Shown here: in pieces, positions 874 through 14,410 of the stretch
How positions within the stretch are numbered: the first letter of the stretch is position 1
How the letters are laid out: every line of letters begins with the position of its first letter
IMG/VR virus record: IMGVR_UViG_3300035698_014979
Span: 1-24,210 of that record
Strand: one strand, 5' to 3'
Origin: a virus
DNA length: 24,210 bases
The notes under the pieces: generated by a model
The model's input: the letters and a program-made list of their open reading frames with translations, nothing else
Databases searched by the model: none
Told to the model about the DNA's origin: nothing
Program-made: the position numbers and the translations under genes

Positions 874-2355
874 TTAAACCCCGAAAGTTACATTTATTTT
901 TTGGTTAGAAGCTGCCGACTCTGCAATCACCGAGACATTCCCACCCACTTGGAAATCTTCTGATCTCCCTGGTTGGAACTGCACCCCCGATGATACTGTG
1001 GCCGCTGCCCCAATTTTAACCCTGATGTTTACCGTATTGGTATCATCCGCGTAAACCTTGCACCACTTAGAATTTGCAGGGGCCGTAAAGGTTTGTGCAG
1101 AGTTAGTTAAGTTTAAAATCTCTTGAAAAGATCCTACCTGCGCGGCCTGGGCGACTGGAATAACTGTATTGTCTGAGGCAATTGTTACTCGCAGAGATCC
1201 CGTGCCAGTGGCACCATTTCCCATCAAGGGAGTGACACCGTTTATCTGAGCAGCGTTTACCGATTGGTTTGCTGCCAGTGCTCCGATGACATTGGCACCT
1301 GTAGGAATGGCAGAGGCCAGACTTACGCTTCCTGAAATTGGAAGTGCTGTGGCCCTGATTTGAGCATCTGTTAAAGCTCCTGAAATTGGTACAGGGGTTG
1401 CTCTAAGTTCAGTGTTATTTAGCCCACTTGTCGTAATACTCCCAGAGATAGGTACTGGAGTTGCTCTAAGTTGAGCATCGGTTAGTGGCCCGGATACAGG
1501 AAGTGCGGTGGCCCTAATTTGGGTATCTGTTAAACCTTGAACTAGTCCTGTGTTAACTGGAACCATTCCCCCCACAAGTGCTGGAGTTTTAGTATTGATT
1601 GCAGAAATTTGCACTAAAGAATCCGCATCATGAACCAATGCCTCAAGGCTTGAATTGATCCCAAGCTGATTAGTCCCATTTCCTATTCTTGTAATATCTG
1701 GATTTGCACCTTGATCCGATAGTTGGACGTTAATATCCCCGGCGGTAATGGTTATTACTGCACCACTGGCCCCGACTATCTCAACCGGGACGGCCACAGT
1801 CTCGGCAGCAACCGATGAGCTTTTATTAATTGGAAGCTGTACACCATCTTTGTAAATCATTAATTGCGAAGGGAGAGCGCGGTTATTTGCTGGGGTTGCC
1901 GTGCTTTCCACTACTTGTTGGGCGCTTCCGTTTAGAACATATTGAGTCGGGCCGGGCGAGAAGTTTACGTTCCCTTCTGAGTCGGTTTTATTAGTAACCC
2001 ATCTCATAATTTTCGCAGTATCCGTATTTAAAGGGATACTGTCGGCGGCGTTTATGATGGAAAAAATGTCTGCATCCACTATGTCTACTATTTCAAATTC
2101 GTACCCGACTAGCGCGCCGGAAGACATTCTAAGAACATCGCCCTTTCTGGCCAAATGCCCTGTGATCTCGATGAAAACAAAGTTATTATCTGGGGACGCT
2201 ACGGAGTTCACGATGTCCGCTGCGACGGCGTTAACTTCCGAAAGTGATTTTGAAGTTACGGAAGTTCCGTACCTATCTGACCCTAAATTGTGAATAGTTT
2301 TGTGTTGAGCGCCCCCAACTTTTTTTTGCGTGGTAAATCCTGATTCGCTGGCCAT
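874..2355 (-). CDS. Virion structural protein with RATPVPISG repeats (493 aa)
   Basis: No enzyme motif is seen. The protein is rich in Ala, Val, Thr, Ser, Asn and Gly, as beta-structured virion proteins are. Residues 274-342 hold four copies of a 15-16 residue unit of the form LTDAQ[IL]RAT[AP][LV]P[IV]SG, a repeat type seen in phage fibre and appendage proteins. The last 85 residues (NLTNSAQTFTAPANSKWCKV onward) look like a separate beta-sandwich domain. The start is well supported: AAGGAGGAGAGG lies 2 bases upstream of ATG 2355. It is downstream of the capsid gene and the 116-aa gene and upstream of the signal-peptide spike gene. A decoration, fibre or adaptor role is likely; which one cannot be told. 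Confidence 0.75.
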   Translation of the reverse strand: MASESGFTTQKKVGGAQHKTIHNLGSDRYGTSVTSKSLSEVNAVAADIVNSVASPDNNFVFIEITGHLARKGDVLRMSSGALVGYEFEIVDIVDADIFSIINAADSIPLNTDTAKIMRWVTNKTDSEGNVNFSPGPTQYVLNGSAQQVVESTATPANNRALPSQLMIYKDGVQLPINKSSSVAAETVAVPVEIVGASGAVITITAGDINVQLSDQGANPDITRIGNGTNQLGINSSLEALVHDADSLVQISAINTKTPALVGGMVPVNTGLVQGLTDTQIRATALPVSGPLTDAQLRATPVPISGSITTSGLNNTELRATPVPISGALTDAQIRATALPISGSVSLASAIPTGANVIGALAANQSVNAAQINGVTPLMGNGATGTGSLRVTIASDNTVIPVAQAAQVGSFQEILNLTNSAQTFTAPANSKWCKVYADDTNTVNIRVKIGAAATVSSGVQFQPGRSEDFQVGGNVSVIAESAASNQKINVTFGV

Positions 2356-2385
2356 AACCTCTCCTCCTTATGGGGATCTTAGGTA

Positions 2386-2410
2386 AGGGGGGACAAAGCT
2401 TCACCCCCCT
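2386..2410 (-). promoter_or_regulatory. Hairpin between the 116-aa and 493-aa genes
   Basis: AGGGGGG (2386-2392) and CCCCCCT (2404-2410) can form a perfect 7-bp GC-rich stem with an 11-nt loop in the minus-strand transcript. It begins 6 bases past the stop of the 116-aa gene. No T-run follows, so it is more likely an mRNA-stabilising or processing hairpin, or a weak terminator, than a strong one. Confidence 0.5.
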
Positions 2411-2416
2411 GTTAAT

Positions 2417-2767
2417 TTAGAAAAGTGTGTCTAATAAAGTTGAATGAACAAGTGATATGTAGAAATCAGCGTTAGCGTCCACTCCTGCAACCTGAGCTTG
2501 AACAGTTACCGAAGATTTATCAACTGCTGCCACGGATATAACCGCGTCTTCAGTAGCGGAAACGACAGAATCTACAACGATGTTTAATCTAGAAGGTTCA
2601 ATGAAATTTAACTTATAGTTACCGGCGCCCAGGTCTTCTACGCTTGAAATAAATGCTTTGTCTAATCCCGAATCGATAGGGGTTGCTGCTGTGCCTGATA
2701 TCAAATGGTAAGTTTTCACTAACCCAATTTGACGCGACTTTAGAGTTCTTTTGATTGAATTTTTCAT
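2417..2767 (-). CDS. Unknown virion-operon protein (116 aa)
   Basis: The product has a basic N-terminus (MKNSIKRTLKSRQIG), then alternating hydrophobic and Val/Ser/Ala-rich stretches that suggest beta strands, such as NIVVDSVVSATEDAVISVAA. No known domain was recognised. It is the first gene after the terminator that follows the capsid gene, so it probably has its own promoter in 2768-2890. GAGG lies 6 bases before ATG 2767. Its position between the capsid gene and the fibre-like genes suggests a head decoration, head-fibre or connector protein, by context only. Confidence 0.6.
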   Translation of the reverse strand: MKNSIKRTLKSRQIGLVKTYHLISGTAATPIDSGLDKAFISSVEDLGAGNYKLNFIEPSRLNIVVDSVVSATEDAVISVAAVDKSSVTVQAQVAGVDANADFYISLVHSTLLDTLF

Positions 2768-2783
2768 ATTTTTCCTCTTGTTA

Positions 2784-2813
2784 CCCTGTGGAGGGATCGC
2801 AAATTATTTTGCG
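2784..2813 (-). promoter_or_regulatory. Leader with two small inverted repeats before the 116-aa gene
   Basis: CGCAAA (2798-2803) and TTTGCG (2808-2813) form a perfect 6-bp inverted repeat with a 4-base centre. CCCT (2784-2787) and AGGG (2792-2795) can form a second, weaker stem. Both lie between a weak sigma70-like promoter candidate (minus strand TTGTTA, 17 bases, TATCCT, around 2820-2850) and the 116-aa start. They could be an operator or a leader structure. Confidence 0.3.
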
Positions 2814-2890
2814 TTATTAAAAGGATAATTTCAGGATGTAATAATAACAAGATAAAAACACTGGTCGATAGCTATGTGAAAACGTACATA

Positions 2891-2913
2891 AAATGAGGGG
2901 CCGAAGCCCCTCA
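2891..2913 (-). terminator. Rho-independent terminator after the major capsid gene
   Basis: On the minus strand TGAGGGGC, loop TTCG, GCCCCTCA form a perfect 8-bp stem closed by a stable UUCG tetraloop, followed by TTTTATG. It starts 9 bases past the capsid stop codon at 2923. On the plus strand the same stem is followed by ATTTTC, so it may act in both directions. It divides the late genes into an upstream (terminase to capsid) and a downstream (116-aa to spike) unit. Confidence 0.85.
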
Positions 2914-2922
2914 ATTTTCTAA

Positions 2923-4185
2923 TTACTTAGAAAGGTTATGTATTACAGTTTGGAAAGTCGGGTCGATAAGGTTTTGGTAATACCCTCCATATCGTGCCTC
3001 GTAAGTATCTTCGTCAGTCGTGCGAAGAAATACTGTACCGTCATCGTCAAACCAACCGAAGTCAGGACGGTGATGACGAACCATGTGCTCATCGTTTAAA
3101 AGAAAAATTTTGTCTTCAGGACAAAATCTATCTACAAACATACCGATAGCTCCGCGAGAAGTCATAAGCTCAACACCAGAAAAGCCCACTGAGCCTTTAA
3201 AATTCTTGTTTGGAAGATTGTAGATCTTTTGGTCTTCCAATTGAGCAAGAATTTTTCTCATTTGGTTGAAGTTCATGAGAACCATTTTAGGAGTTTCGCC
3301 AGTAGCTTTCTCTTGCTTAAGAACAGCGTCGTTAAGAGCGTCAGTTACGACACCCTGTCCAAGAGCGTCGATTTGCTGAGACTGCCATCTACGCTTAACA
3401 GGGATGTTGTAAAGTGACCCTGAAGTCGCCATTACTACGCCTGAAAGGCCATTTGGTTCAGCTAGGTAAGATCTCTGCATAACAAACCCAGCAGTTGTAG
3501 CAACAGGGTTAGCGCCCGATAGGGTGGCAAGAGCAGGAGATGTACCTACTAACTTAAGTTGTCTAGAAGCTGGAATAACTTCAGCAATCATAAGAAGGTT
3601 AGTTTCAGCATCTCCGCCTTCAGCGGTTCCGCCGAGGTTGTCCCCGGCGTTTAGGCCAGAAACATACTGAACATAATCTTGCTCCTCGAAATTTGACTCA
3701 TTCCAGTCAGAAGCTCTAAGCGTTACGATATATGGAGTAGCTACCGATCCGTTTCCAGATACGTTTGTGGCTCCCGCTCCACGTCCAAGAATCCCCGTAC
3801 CGTCGCCGAAAGACATACGGTTAGAGTTACGGATGAAAGACTCAACCGCTTTCTTTACGGGATACGCCATAAACTTATGAAATGCACCGTCGTTAGACGA
3901 GGCAGCTTTCAAAGATTCACGGTCAACTAGAACTCTTGCGTAGTTTTTAGTAGCTGTGATAACAGCTTGCTCGATGATCGAAGTGTTGGCCTTAGGAAGC
4001 AATTTAGCTCCTACACCCCCAGAAAACGACAATTGAGTTTCGATGTTTTTTTGCTTTCCTACGAAGTCGTACACTTTCTTGATACGGCCATCTAAAAGAG
4101 CTTTTGAATTGTAGTGATTTACTGAACGTGCTTGGAACTTGGTTAAAAAGTTACCAGACGTTTCTGTTAATGAAAATTGACCCAT
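2923..4185 (-). CDS. Major capsid protein (HK97-fold coat protein candidate)
   Basis: At 420 aa the product has the size of a phage coat protein. It follows the portal and scaffold genes in the canonical order and is followed at once by a strong terminator, as highly expressed capsid genes often are. Features: an early stretch with basic and aromatic residues (about 15-45), a long helix-like region around residues 75-130, the segment NRMSFGDGTGILG, and a C-terminal part rich in Asp, Tyr and Arg (RRHHRPDFGWFDDD-like region) seen in coat proteins of this type. There is no N-terminal protease-processed delta domain, which fits a separate scaffold protein. GGAGG sits 8 bases before ATG 4185, but a complementary sequence upstream could pair with it. 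The HK97 fold is inferred from context and sequence character. Confidence 0.85.
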   Translation of the reverse strand: MGQFSLTETSGNFLTKFQARSVNHYNSKALLDGRIKKVYDFVGKQKNIETQLSFSGGVGAKLLPKANTSIIEQAVITATKNYARVLVDRESLKAASSNDGAFHKFMAYPVKKAVESFIRNSNRMSFGDGTGILGRGAGATNVSGNGSVATPYIVTLRASDWNESNFEEQDYVQYVSGLNAGDNLGGTAEGGDAETNLLMIAEVIPASRQLKLVGTSPALATLSGANPVATTAGFVMQRSYLAEPNGLSGVVMATSGSLYNIPVKRRWQSQQIDALGQGVVTDALNDAVLKQEKATGETPKMVLMNFNQMRKILAQLEDQKIYNLPNKNFKGSVGFSGVELMTSRGAIGMFVDRFCPEDKIFLLNDEHMVRHHRPDFGWFDDDGTVFLRTTDEDTYEARYGGYYQNLIDPTFQTVIHNLSK

Positions 4186-4189
4186 AGTA

Positions 4190-4243
4190 ATGTCCTCCCT
4201 GGACTAATTAGTTGTTATTTAAACCGATTCGATGGGAGGACAT
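4190..4243 (-). promoter_or_regulatory. Hairpin that would sequester the capsid ribosome-binding site
   Basis: In the leader of the capsid gene the minus strand reads ATGTCCTCCC (rc of 4234-4243), 34 bases, then GGGAGGACAT (rc of 4190-4199). The two 10-base arms are perfectly complementary. The downstream arm contains the GGAGG Shine-Dalgarno sequence (4194-4198), 8 bases before the ATG. Folding would therefore hide the ribosome-binding site of the major capsid gene. Pairing is seen directly; a regulatory role is inferred. Confidence 0.7.
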
Positions 4244-4269
4244 GTTTTATGGGTTTTACGATTTAAGGT

Positions 4270-5553
4270 TTAATCCTCGTCATCAAAGTCCAAAGTTTCA
4301 AACTTAGAAGGAGTTTTAACTTCCTCTCTTAAGCTCTTTTTCTGAACTTCTTTAGTTCTTGATTGAAGATCTTTAACGTCTTCATCCATGAACTCTTTGC
4401 TTGCCCATTCTTGTAATTGTTCTTTTGTGAAATCTTTCGCTCGTATTTGACGTGCTAAGTTTCGAACAATCTCAGAATATTTGGAGTCATCGATAGAATC
4501 TTCAAAAGGCTCTAGAACATCTTGAACTGTAACGGTGTGCGGTTTTAGACTGGCATAGTCGACCACTTGTTCGTCCGTCATCTTGTTCGTGTCTGTGCCT
4601 TCGGACTCTAATTGATCCAAAGCTTGTAAGTATTGCTCTTCACTAACGCCATGAGCTTGTCGTATAGAATCTACTTTTTGGACTGCTTGGTTAAAAGCTT
4701 CTGTCTTCGTAGATTCGGCGATACGGGCCTGTTCGGACTTAGTTCGGAACTCGTCTTTTTTCTCAAGAAAATACGCTTTTCTTTCGACTTCAGACATAGA
4801 CATTAGATTTTCAACCTCGCCGAGATTGGCCTCTAACATCCTCTTATAAACACTATAATTATCTTGTCCGCTTTTTTCAACTAAAAAATACAGCGCATCA
4901 AGCGGATTGGCATCGGGGTCACTTAAATGCTTAATTACTTCGGAAGCGGTATTCTTGATAAAAACTTGTTGCCTTTCAATTTGAGCAGCTTTTTGTTCTA
5001 TCTCTTTTTTCTCGTTCCCCATCTCTGAGAACTTTTTGTCATAGGCAACCTTGCCCGAATAGTTATTAATTAGTTCTTGGAATGGAACTTCCTGGTATTC
5101 TCCTGCAATTTTTACTCTTACTTTAGAATCAGATTCTACACTATATAGCCCATCCGACATCCGAATCTTTAGTTTCTTGGCCTCGGATTTTTCTTCCTTC
5201 TCTTCCTTCGCTTCTTTCTCTTCAGCAGTTTCTTCCTTTACCTCTTCTTTTTTGTCAGCTTTTTCTTTTTTAGGAGCTTCTTTCTTTTCCTCTTCCTTCG
5301 CCTCTTTTTCGTCTAGAAGATCTAAGTCAGTACCTTTTTTTGATTCTTTCTTTTCTTCTTTCTCTTCCTTTTCATCTTCTACGTTTGACTTTGCCTTTTT
5401 CGCCTTGTCAATTCTGTCTTTGAATTTATCTTGGAAATCTTCGCCTAACTTCTTGCTGCCTTCAGATTCATAATCTAAATCATCGAAAGTTTCGTTAGGG
5501 TCAATATCTAGCGCGGCCATGTTTGTAGATCCCATTGATTCTTCTAAGTTCAT
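4270..5553 (-). CDS. Scaffolding protein
   Basis: The 427-aa product is highly charged. Residues of about 34-128 are almost pure Glu/Lys with some Asp and Ala, a likely flexible or coiled-coil segment. Residues 135-200 carry a short domain (KVRVKIAGEYQEVPFQELIN followed by a YSGKVAYDKKFSE segment) and then a helix, an arrangement common in phage scaffold proteins. The C-terminus ends in an acidic tail (ETLDFDDED); scaffold C-termini often bind coat protein, though the acidic character here is unusual for that. It lies exactly between portal and capsid genes. Its ATG shares one base with the portal stop (TAATG), so translation is probably coupled. No protease motif is visible. Function rests mainly on position and composition. 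Confidence 0.8.
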   Translation of the reverse strand: MNLEESMGSTNMAALDIDPNETFDDLDYESEGSKKLGEDFQDKFKDRIDKAKKAKSNVEDEKEEKEEKKESKKGTDLDLLDEKEAKEEEKKEAPKKEKADKKEEVKEETAEEKEAKEEKEEKSEAKKLKIRMSDGLYSVESDSKVRVKIAGEYQEVPFQELINNYSGKVAYDKKFSEMGNEKKEIEQKAAQIERQQVFIKNTASEVIKHLSDPDANPLDALYFLVEKSGQDNYSVYKRMLEANLGEVENLMSMSEVERKAYFLEKKDEFRTKSEQARIAESTKTEAFNQAVQKVDSIRQAHGVSEEQYLQALDQLESEGTDTNKMTDEQVVDYASLKPHTVTVQDVLEPFEDSIDDSKYSEIVRNLARQIRAKDFTKEQLQEWASKEFMDEDVKDLQSRTKEVQKKSLREEVKTPSKFETLDFDDED

Positions 5554-7664
5554 TATTGAGCTCCTTGTTCAGTCATTTGTTTTTCGATCTCTTGCTTTTG
5601 AAATTCCATTGCTCCGGTATCCGCTCCTCCCGAAGATTTTTGGGAAGCTTCCGGCGTAGGCGCAATCGGCATGGGCGGTTGAGGTACAGAAAAGAAAATA
5701 GGGTATTTCTCAAAAGCTAAAAGAAGTTGAGCAAACTTTGTGTTCTCGACAGACTTTTGCCACATCAACACTTCTATCCCTATAATGTAATCATCTACAG
5801 ACTGTTTTATGGCTTCATCTAGTTTTGTTTTGTAAATTAAACTCTCGATGAATCTTCCAAAAACAGAGTAGAACTCTAGTAGGCCATCTGTTTTGCTTGG
5901 AGGAGGCGCTTGCTCTCCATCCAGTAACATGTCTAGTATGGTTCTCGCGGTATCAATTGCGTACGTCGCTTCGTCTTTAAACGCATCGTTAAGTCCTAAG
6001 TCCAAAAGTTTAATGATCTCTTTAGGTTTAAATACCGGGTCGTTTTGAGTTACCGCGTTTAAATCTATAATGTCCGCTATCGCTCCTGTTTTAGAATCTC
6101 CGATAGAGGAAGTGTTCTCGTACCTGACATCTGCAATACTTCCTAAAGCTAATTTTTTAAACGATTTAATAATGAACTCATTGTTTTCACCAACTAGTCG
6201 AATGGTTCTCTCATCGGTCTCTTTGTAATATTGCGACATGAGAGAAACTTCTTGCCTTGTAATATCTAAAACTCTTCTCTTCCTTTTAGAAATACTTGGG
6301 TTAGCTCTTTGATGTTCTTGTTCATCCAAGTACCGAATGGCCGACGCGGCGGTTATGCCTTGGGGAACGATACCTCTAGAGATGTCAAAAACCCCTGAAA
6401 GTTCTCCGGCCCTAGATTGACAGTGCTTTTGAAAATCTAACTCTCCCCTATTTACGTATTGGTGTTGAAGTATTTTAGGTTCTACCGCTCCACGGTACTG
6501 AACGAAAGAGTATTCATTATTCCAAGACTTGGCATCTACACTTCCTTCGGGGGCAATTACTTTAGGAGCGTTTAATACTCCGTGATTTCTTGCCATACCG
6601 GAGATCAGAGAATTATTTACCTTGTAGAATTGCTCGATGTTGGTCACGAAAGGTCTTCCCCAAAACTCGTTTTCAACTTCAATGTCCCTTTCATCTACAA
6701 AAGGTAGTTTCCCATGGTCGTAAGGAAAATCTATCCATTCTAATATGAGATCATCGCACCATGTGATTCGGCATCCTTCAGGAAAATATTCAGAAGGCTT
6801 ATGCCAAAACACTCTAATCATTATTTCGTTATTTGGACGATCTAACCTATCGGTGGTAAAATCCCACTTCACGTATTCGGACGATTTTATTTTATCTTTT
6901 GCCTTGGGCCATTTATGCTCAACCAATTGCTTTGTCACCCACTCGTGAGTTTGAACGTAATCACACTCAAGAAGTTTCTTTTTGCACGATTCGGGAAACC
7001 ACTCGTAAGGTTGCCAAAGCTTACCCTTCGTATCTCCAATAAACACAGGCTTCTTTAAATCAAGTGGCAGTCCCGTAGCTTCATCTACTAGAGCGCCTTC
7101 TCCTTCTTTATACTTAGCTTTTGCCCGCACATAACTTGGAGCTAACCCGCCTTGATTTTTATCCCAGCATTTCTCGTAAATAGAATGTCCTAAAAGATAG
7201 GTAGTTCTATCCATTCGGATCATGTCGCCATCAAAGTCAGTCTCTTCGTATCGGGCCTTAACCAAAAGCTTCGCTGCCTTAGTAGCGTTGATGTCGTCTT
7301 GAGAATTTTGTACTCTAGGGATAAAAGTTAACGCCGTCTTTTGCTTAGAAACCTGAGCGATTCTTTGCTCTGTGAAAGCATAGATCATGTTATCTCTAAC
7401 TTTAGGCTTTCTTCTCGCGAGTCCAGTCGTACGGGAAGATGTCTTCATCATGCCGTCGCCTTCGTACTCATCGAGGTTCTTATACATGTTTAAGTATCTT
7501 CGATACATTATGTATCTTGGGTAAGCTTTCTCGTACTCATACTCAAACCAACACTTAAGCCATCTGTGAGTATCCTCCTCCCCTTTCTTTTCTCTAAATT
7601 GAAAAGGGATCTGCTCGTCGGAATATCCTGGGCTGTCTAAATTATCGAGCGTATTAGAGCTCAT
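5553..7664 (-). CDS. Portal protein
   Basis: The 703-aa product is in the size range of large portals of short-tailed phages. It forms the dodecameric ring at the DNA-entry vertex. The N-terminus holds a helix-rich part with many Tyr, Arg and Trp residues (residues 35-70). The central part has NDNM/RDNMIYAFTEQR and later the region around residues 350-450 with NSLISGMARNHG, FDISRGIVPQGITAASAIRY and a following RANPSISKRKRR helix, typical of the clip/stem regions of portals. The C-terminus is Pro/Ala/Gln-rich and may be a barrel or disordered tail. It starts behind GGAGG (7671-7675) that overlaps the stop of the 99-aa membrane protein gene, and it shares one base with the scaffold start. Large terminase lies two genes upstream, the usual order. 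Confidence 0.88.
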   Translation of the reverse strand: MSSNTLDNLDSPGYSDEQIPFQFREKKGEEDTHRWLKCWFEYEYEKAYPRYIMYRRYLNMYKNLDEYEGDGMMKTSSRTTGLARRKPKVRDNMIYAFTEQRIAQVSKQKTALTFIPRVQNSQDDINATKAAKLLVKARYEETDFDGDMIRMDRTTYLLGHSIYEKCWDKNQGGLAPSYVRAKAKYKEGEGALVDEATGLPLDLKKPVFIGDTKGKLWQPYEWFPESCKKKLLECDYVQTHEWVTKQLVEHKWPKAKDKIKSSEYVKWDFTTDRLDRPNNEIMIRVFWHKPSEYFPEGCRITWCDDLILEWIDFPYDHGKLPFVDERDIEVENEFWGRPFVTNIEQFYKVNNSLISGMARNHGVLNAPKVIAPEGSVDAKSWNNEYSFVQYRGAVEPKILQHQYVNRGELDFQKHCQSRAGELSGVFDISRGIVPQGITAASAIRYLDEQEHQRANPSISKRKRRVLDITRQEVSLMSQYYKETDERTIRLVGENNEFIIKSFKKLALGSIADVRYENTSSIGDSKTGAIADIIDLNAVTQNDPVFKPKEIIKLLDLGLNDAFKDEATYAIDTARTILDMLLDGEQAPPPSKTDGLLEFYSVFGRFIESLIYKTKLDEAIKQSVDDYIIGIEVLMWQKSVENTKFAQLLLAFEKYPIFFSVPQPPMPIAPTPEASQKSSGGADTGAMEFQKQEIEKQMTEQGAQ

Positions 7665-13396: not shown

Positions 13397-14410
13397 CTAA
13401 CTTGCGCTTTCCGTTTCCTCATCTTCAAAATAGTTAACCCCATAGGCTGCAGACTTATCTAAGTTTCCGCGCCTTTTATCGTATCTTTCAGTGGTCGTGA
13501 TATTGGTATGCCCCGCGAAGGTGGCGACGTCGCGGATAGATCGCCCCTGGGTGTCCAGAAGATGAGAGATTGCCGTCGCGCGACACGAATGTGGAGAAAC
13601 ACGCTTATTTATCTTTAGGTTTTTAGCGTACTTGTTTATGAGCCTGTAGATAGTGGAGCCATTCATGGGAGTTTTATTTTTTCGCCCCTGATCGCTTCCC
13701 TGGAGTAAAAAGTCCGCGCCTTCAAGCGGACAGACTTTAAAGGCTTCGGCGTAGCGGGTTATTTCAGATAAAACGTAAGGGTTTAAGGGGATTACTCGCA
13801 CTTTATCCCCCTTCCCGCGAATCCTCAAAACGGTGTGCCCCCTATCTTCGTAAATATGCTCCATTCGGACGTTTACGAGTTCAGAGCGTCTTAGTCCTAG
13901 ATTGAATAAAAGCGCCATAGCGAGGCGGTGAGTGCGTCCCCGGTGGTGGCGCACATCGGGCGCGGAGATCATCTGCACAACCTCTTTATCATCAAAAGCG
14001 AGAGTTTCGGCCTCGGTTTGAACCTTCGGAAGTTTAACGCTATCTAAGGGATTCGAGTCTATAAGCTTCATTGCGACTGACCATTTCATGAATGAGCGTA
14101 TAGATACGAGGCGGCGGGCGATAGTGGCGCTGGCCCGGCCTTGCTGGATAAGTTCGTCCCTATATAGTTGAAAATGAAAGGCCTCTATCTGCCTAGGATG
14201 AGTGATTATGACGTCGCCTGACCGCAGAAAGGCAAAGAAGGATTTAAGATCTTTAATGTACGCTATTTTTGTGTCGTTTGATATAAACTGACACAAAAAG
14301 TCTGAGATAAAATCGTCAATGAAGGCCTTATTTTTCCCTGCGTTTTGAAATTTTCGGGCCAGATCCGGGTTTCTAATTAGTGCCAGATCAGTCGTTTTTG
14401 GTGGTTTCAT
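13397..14410 (-). CDS. Tyrosine recombinase / integrase
   Basis: The 337-aa product has an N-terminal SAM-like core-binding domain (about 25-125, with YIKDLKSFFAFL and ATIARRLVSIRSFMKW) and a C-terminal catalytic domain. All expected catalytic residues are visible: Arg174 in LGLRRSELV, Lys200 in RIRGKGDKV, His274 and Arg277 in PHSCRATAI, His301 in AGHTNITTT and nucleophile Tyr310 in TERYDKR. The compact size and the motif spacing are Xer/phage-integrase like. It implies integration, excision or resolution of genome multimers. AAGGAAAC precedes ATG 14410 at 6 bases. The gene is visibly more GC-rich (many GCG, CGC and CCC codons) than its neighbours, which hints at a separate origin. No attachment site could be identified. 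Confidence 0.93.
   Translation of the reverse strand: MKPPKTTDLALIRNPDLARKFQNAGKNKAFIDDFISDFLCQFISNDTKIAYIKDLKSFFAFLRSGDVIITHPRQIEAFHFQLYRDELIQQGRASATIARRLVSIRSFMKWSVAMKLIDSNPLDSVKLPKVQTEAETLAFDDKEVVQMISAPDVRHHRGRTHRLAMALLFNLGLRRSELVNVRMEHIYEDRGHTVLRIRGKGDKVRVIPLNPYVLSEITRYAEAFKVCPLEGADFLLQGSDQGRKNKTPMNGSTIYRLINKYAKNLKINKRVSPHSCRATAISHLLDTQGRSIRDVATFAGHTNITTTERYDKRRGNLDKSAAYGVNYFEDEETESAS

Follow-up and report, generated by a model that had tools for sequence, protein, structure and literature searches.

A predicted long-range helix over the Shine-Dalgarno sequence and start codon of a phage major capsid gene, with likeness to T4 late-gene leaders

The closest described counterparts of the leader analysed here are the inhibitory structures of the phage T4 genes e, soc, 49 and I-TevI, in which an upstream strand pairs with the Shine-Dalgarno sequence (SD) and/or the AUG in read-through transcripts; gene e transcripts begun at the late promoter are without this 5' strand and are well translated (PMC3014915). 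The coat start region of the RNA phage MS2 also lies in a hairpin, the stability of which determines expression, and relative expression was 0.001 (0.1 %) at -12.85 kcal/mol (PMC9894550). The leader stems of RNA thermometers (ROSE, fourU) pair with the SD, and the autogenous operators of T4 gp43 and gp32 are phage mRNA structures by the SD that serve translational control. For major capsid genes, unrestrained translation is the usual assumption.

The present leader, a predicted structure, precedes the major capsid gene in a phage of a group unrelated to T4. The window, that is, the whole stretch of DNA analysed, is a virus record of 24,210 bases with its virion genes on the minus strand. Its relevant features are the following.

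9447-7960, minus strand: terminase gene
7664-5553, minus strand: portal gene
5553-4270, minus strand: presumed scaffold gene, stop codon 4272-4270 (ORF list)
4254-4248, minus strand: predicted outer helix, 5' strand ACCCATA (anti-start), pairing with 4180-4186 (p 0.89-1.00)
4243-4234, minus strand: predicted inner helix, 5' strand ATGTCCTCCC (anti-Shine-Dalgarno), pairing with 4190-4199 (p 0.90-1.00)
4200-4233, minus strand: AU-rich loop of 34 nt; transcripts begun here would be without the 5' arm
4192-4204, minus strand: local mini-hairpin GTCC-AGGGA-GGAC
4190-4199, minus strand: predicted inner helix, 3' strand GGGAGGACAT, carrying the SD GGAGG (4194-4198; unpaired probability 0.00)
4180-4186, minus strand: predicted outer helix, 3' strand TATGGGT, holding the start codon
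4185-2923, minus strand: major capsid protein gene, ATG 4185-4183 (ORF list; phrog_14242 major head protein, E 1.1e-15)
2767-2417, minus strand: gene of 116 amino acids, next after the capsid gene

The product of 5553-4270 is presumed to be the scaffold from its acidic, coiled character and the placement of its gene between those for portal and capsid; it had no PHROG match, and its homologues in two relatives (L002 and L083) are 65-69 % identical to it. A strong intrinsic terminator (TGAGGGGCTTCGGCCCCTCATTTT; 2894-2913, minus strand) stands right behind the capsid stop, so the capsid gene may close its own transcription unit. The window also holds a tyrosine recombinase gene (13397-14410, minus strand; Pfam Phage_integrase) and the phage may therefore be temperate; such a lifestyle, if true, would be a reason for keeping capsid translation locked on stray transcripts.

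As lettered in the window, the 10-base arms at 4190-4199 (ATGTCCTCCC) and 4234-4243 (GGGAGGACAT) are perfect complements and the GGAGG at 4198-4194 has its last base 8 nt ahead of the ATG at 4185, as claimed in the initial annotation. Because the capsid gene is read from the minus strand, the arm nearer the mRNA 5' end is 4243-4234, and 4199-4190 is the arm with the SD. In mRNA sense the order across the 84-nt gap between scaffold and capsid is ACCCATA-AAAC-ATGTCCTCCC, the 34-nt loop, then GGGAGGACAT-TAC-TATGGGT, with 26 nt between the end of the scaffold stop (4270) and the inner 5' arm. The hairpin observation was thereby confirmed, and had been understated: the initial annotation did not include the outer 7-bp helix (4248-4254 with 4180-4186), which pairs the AUG and codon 2.

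Taken alone, a perfect inverted repeat of 10 nt within 100 nt is unremarkable in 24 kb (another, I23, was found); what goes beyond chance is the fit of the repeat to the SD and start, not the repeat itself. When the 126-nt minus-strand fold was compared with shuffled sequences, a check proposed in the initial annotation, z was -4.65. Opening energies, all of which are equilibrium predictions, were then compared with 500 shuffles in which the SD-start (3') side was fixed and the remainder of the leader shuffled: exposing the SD and AUG costs 24.2 kcal/mol in the window against 10.8 +/- 2.3 kcal/mol in the shuffled leaders, none of which reached the observed value. The capsid start is the most occluded of the 22 gene starts in the window (24.1 kcal/mol, the next being 10.0), and the median for the capsid leaders of the family is 5.6 kcal/mol. 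With the 5' arm deleted in silico, the cost was about 6 kcal/mol instead of about 24; all three phages that carry the structure come to about 6 kcal/mol without the arm, near the family norm, and the mini-hairpin at 4192-4204 adds about 1-4 kcal/mol in silico once the arm is gone. On these folding predictions it is very probable that the capsid leader does fold in this way and that the start region is buried.

The relatives were gathered from IMG/VR and GTDB scans, and the collections searched held three independent leaders. L001/L082 are the window phage again (99.6 % DNA identity, identical leader); the two independent relatives are L002 (capsid 85 % identical) and L003/L083 (capsid 84 %), with leaders of 90 and 85 nt, respectively, about 45-55 % identical to that of the window. 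The cost of opening the start region is 19.1 kcal/mol in L002 and 22.1 kcal/mol in L003, and in each case 0 of 500 shuffles reached the observed value. In L002, GAGAAAGCCATAG pairs with CTATGGCTTTTTCTC, spanning the start codon, and CCTCC pairs with GGAGG at a probability of about 0.55-0.83, a local hairpin competing; in L003, AGTCCTCCC pairs with GGGAGGACT and CCAT with ATGG. The sequence GTCCANGGGAGGAC in the mini-hairpin is invariant across all three leaders.

A two-sequence RNAalifold run on a MAFFT alignment returned no pairs, because the arms shift register, and covariation was assessed instead by pair-by-pair comparison and arm swaps. Four positions proved to be changed on both sides: position +5 is G-C in the window and C-G in L002; position -1 is U-A in the window and L002 and A-U in L003; position -2 is C-G in L002 and A-U in L003; and the base after GGAC is paired A-U in the window and U-A in L003. 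Cognate 5' and 3' sides gave 24.2, 19.1 and 22.1 kcal/mol, and all six swaps 12.5-17.3 kcal/mol. When the 5' side of one phage was allowed to drift, free of constraint, by 20-40 %, the observed value was reached in 0-2.8 % of 1000 trials. This is good evidence, from three leaders only, that the pairing is under selection. Compensatory arm changes in relatives, which the initial annotation had named as a check, were thus found in L002 and L003, and its claim that the ribosome-binding site is buried is upheld by them together with the opening cost.

The distribution of the lock is narrow. Capsids 61-64 % identical to that of the window (L084, L090-L095) and the remaining members of the 80-locus family are without it, as are the relatives at 40-51 % identity; in all, about 95 more distant capsid leaders have no comparable conserved lock, and the element is therefore lineage-specific. 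The initial annotation had taken retention of the SD with loss of its complement as evidence against the idea; that condition holds in part, the complement being kept in L002 and L003 and absent where capsids no more than 64 % identical retain the SD. The scaffold-capsid gap has a median of 19 nt over 100 leaders and is mostly short in the distant relatives; the lock, like the lengthened gap, is therefore confined to one small lineage. The z of the other leaders is at most about 3, with the sole exception of L047 (4820-5000), whose unusually long, hairpin-rich gap of 181 nt buries the SD (z 4.1). L047 seemed an independent case of the lock, but in its 76 % relative L105 the gap, also unusually long and hairpin-rich (115 nt), does not bury the SD (z 1.0), and L047 is at most a possible case. 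A pattern search of DNA for GTCCANGGGAGGAC plus ATGG gave extra matches that were unrelated and probably due to chance; genome contigs yielded one further relative only (48 %), and a phage collection one match at 23 %. Rfam covariance models run over 2300-5700 gave no match up to E = 5, so a known RNA family was set aside.

The fold probably works as an off-switch for capsid translation in cells, as judged from its predicted burial of the start and the joint change of its two sides. By the MS2 scale, which comes from another hairpin in E. coli and is a guide only, a leader costing 19-24 kcal/mol should be almost silent. The MS2 hairpin is short and local, about -8 kcal/mol, and is not limiting in the wild type; the helix predicted in the window is long-range and two to three times as costly. 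Virions need much capsid, and something must therefore open or bypass the lock. The reading favoured here, held tentatively and at somewhat less than an even chance, is that the leader is a cis-acting lock and that the mRNAs translated into capsid are those with a 5' end within the loop. On read-through mRNA from the scaffold and portal genes the two-part helix would cover the SD and AUG, and scarcely any capsid would be made; a late start site or a cleavage would place the mRNA 5' end in the loop, the 5' arm would be lost, and the ribosome-binding site, now free, would allow the capsid to be translated. As with e and soc of T4, genes for lysis or the virion that are expressed late, the site would become accessible once the 5' arm is gone; the gene here is the major capsid gene, and no late promoter was recognised inside the leader. 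The T4-like mode of opening is a guess from precedent. No sigma-70-like promoter was seen in the loop (4200-4233), and the host may use promoters of another type; the AT-rich loops of the three phages share no motif at a constant position. Their A/T runs lie at differing distances from the SD, so no conserved start site backs a T4-type opening. If the mRNA were merely cut in the loop, the 5' arm would stay base-paired, which counts against the favoured reading. The device is of a known kind; what is unusual is to find it on a major capsid gene and at this strength. A conserved helix that nearly silences the capsid would imply that scaffold and capsid, or early and late transcripts, are separated at the level of translation, and the major capsid gene of an unrelated phage would be a rare place to meet a control scheme known from T4 lysis and decoration genes.

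The main rival, rather unlikely as it stands, is that capsid synthesis is timed by an RNA-binding protein, of the phage or the host, that opens the hairpin or locks it; candidates would be, for example, the capsid or scaffold protein acting autogenously, a helicase or chaperone, or a CsrA-type protein reading GTCC-A(N)GGGA-GGAC. The best clue to it is the invariance of GTCCANGGGAGGAC in leaders otherwise about half identical, although the SD itself accounts for part of that invariance. The lock is also too stable to open unaided, and in relatives hairpins of the CsrA-like A(N)GGA type follow closely behind the capsid gene; against this, these partial phage records hold no CsrA gene, the GGGA of the loop is out of register with the CsrA consensus in two of the three phages, and no candidate protein was identified. 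The T4 gp43 and gp32 operators dock proteins, whereas no binding protein is known here. A leader regulated by CsrA in the strict sense was rejected: the predictor of PMC4066749 calls for A(N)GGA on the SD and at least three sites, and only one site, GGGAGGA, occurs in the leader of the window. Translational coupling, by which ribosomes ending the scaffold gene would unfold the helix or restart and so link capsid to scaffold output, agrees with the gene order, scaffold before capsid, and with the SDs of distant relatives, which follow the scaffold stop by about 20 nt. A terminating ribosome covers about 9-12 nt past the stop codon. The distance from the scaffold stop to the first base pair is 15, 21 and 23 nt in the three phages with the lock, so scaffold ribosomes would halt 3-14 nt short of the stem; the gap is moreover lengthened there to 84-90 nt, and coupling is improbable. 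Melting by scaffold ribosomes, as proposed in the initial annotation, was discarded, there being no stop codon within or next to the stem in any of the three phages.

Temperature, another of the initial proposals, was likewise rejected: in the window the cost of opening the SD falls from 24.9 kcal/mol at 4 °C to 18 at 37 °C and at 60 °C is still 12.6 kcal/mol, far beyond what a thermometer such as ROSE or fourU would allow. Of the gating originally envisaged, burial of the ribosome-binding site is strongly supported, and ribosome passage and temperature are not supported. There is a slight chance that the stem serves RNase III-type processing or stabilises the capsid mRNA at its 5' end, its burial of the start being incidental. 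The two stems with an internal loop between them would suit this, the terminator behind the capsid gene makes a defined capsid mRNA plausible, and other hairpins occupy the scaffold-capsid gap in some distant relatives (L021, L029); yet the conserved part is exactly the complementarity to SD and AUG, including the both-sided change at +5, and amounts to only about 17 bp in two pieces. That the arms are a DNA inverted repeat for a transcription factor, and not an RNA structure, is very unlikely: they do form an inverted repeat, which compensatory change would keep too, but the spacer is 34-38 bp, the arms are aligned to the SD and start codon, L002 and L003 contain G-U pairs, and the arm architecture differs in L002. 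Two further candidates fell away. The stem is not an intrinsic terminator, being without a U-run and having a 34-nt loop, with the real terminator at 2894-2913; and the start of an upstream mini-ORF (ATGTCCTCC...TAA) in the leader is not retained in L002 or L003.

Downstream of the capsid gene, the gap before the 116-amino-acid gene contains in relatives a stable hairpin whose apical loop includes or adjoins GGA, for example CACACGGATGTG in L092 and GAACATGGATGTTA in L090. Such A(N)GGA hairpins, with unrelated stem sequences, are located in diverse members of the family as follows.

L090:8648, L091:8481, L092:7913, L093:6262, L095:8344: downstream hairpins
L083:8656, L053:6237, L152:3746, L011:4275, L020:6242: downstream hairpins

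Those of L011 and L020 look like a terminator stem, and the same gap in the window has no A(N)GGA hairpin. Hairpins with A(N)GGA loops are about 8 times denser downstream (18 in 9.4 kb against 88 in 370 kb of upstream coding sequence), in a count that takes in some SD-overlapping hairpins and compares two sequence classes of different composition. Their resemblance to CsrA/RsmA sites (PMC4066749) is a lead, not a result. That the family controls its virion genes post-transcriptionally, by the lock ahead of the capsid gene in one clade and conserved A(N)GGA hairpins behind it in others, with a host RNA-binding protein such as CsrA/RsmA as the reader, is distinctly doubtful. The leader of the 116-amino-acid gene is itself structured: in L083 (8681-8800) its SD is buried at about 16-17 kcal/mol (z 4.3), and in the window (2768-2862, minus strand) weakly, at about 5 kcal/mol. 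A small hairpin there, CCCTCCACAGGG / CCCACCAATGGG (window 2784-2795), shows one both-sided change.
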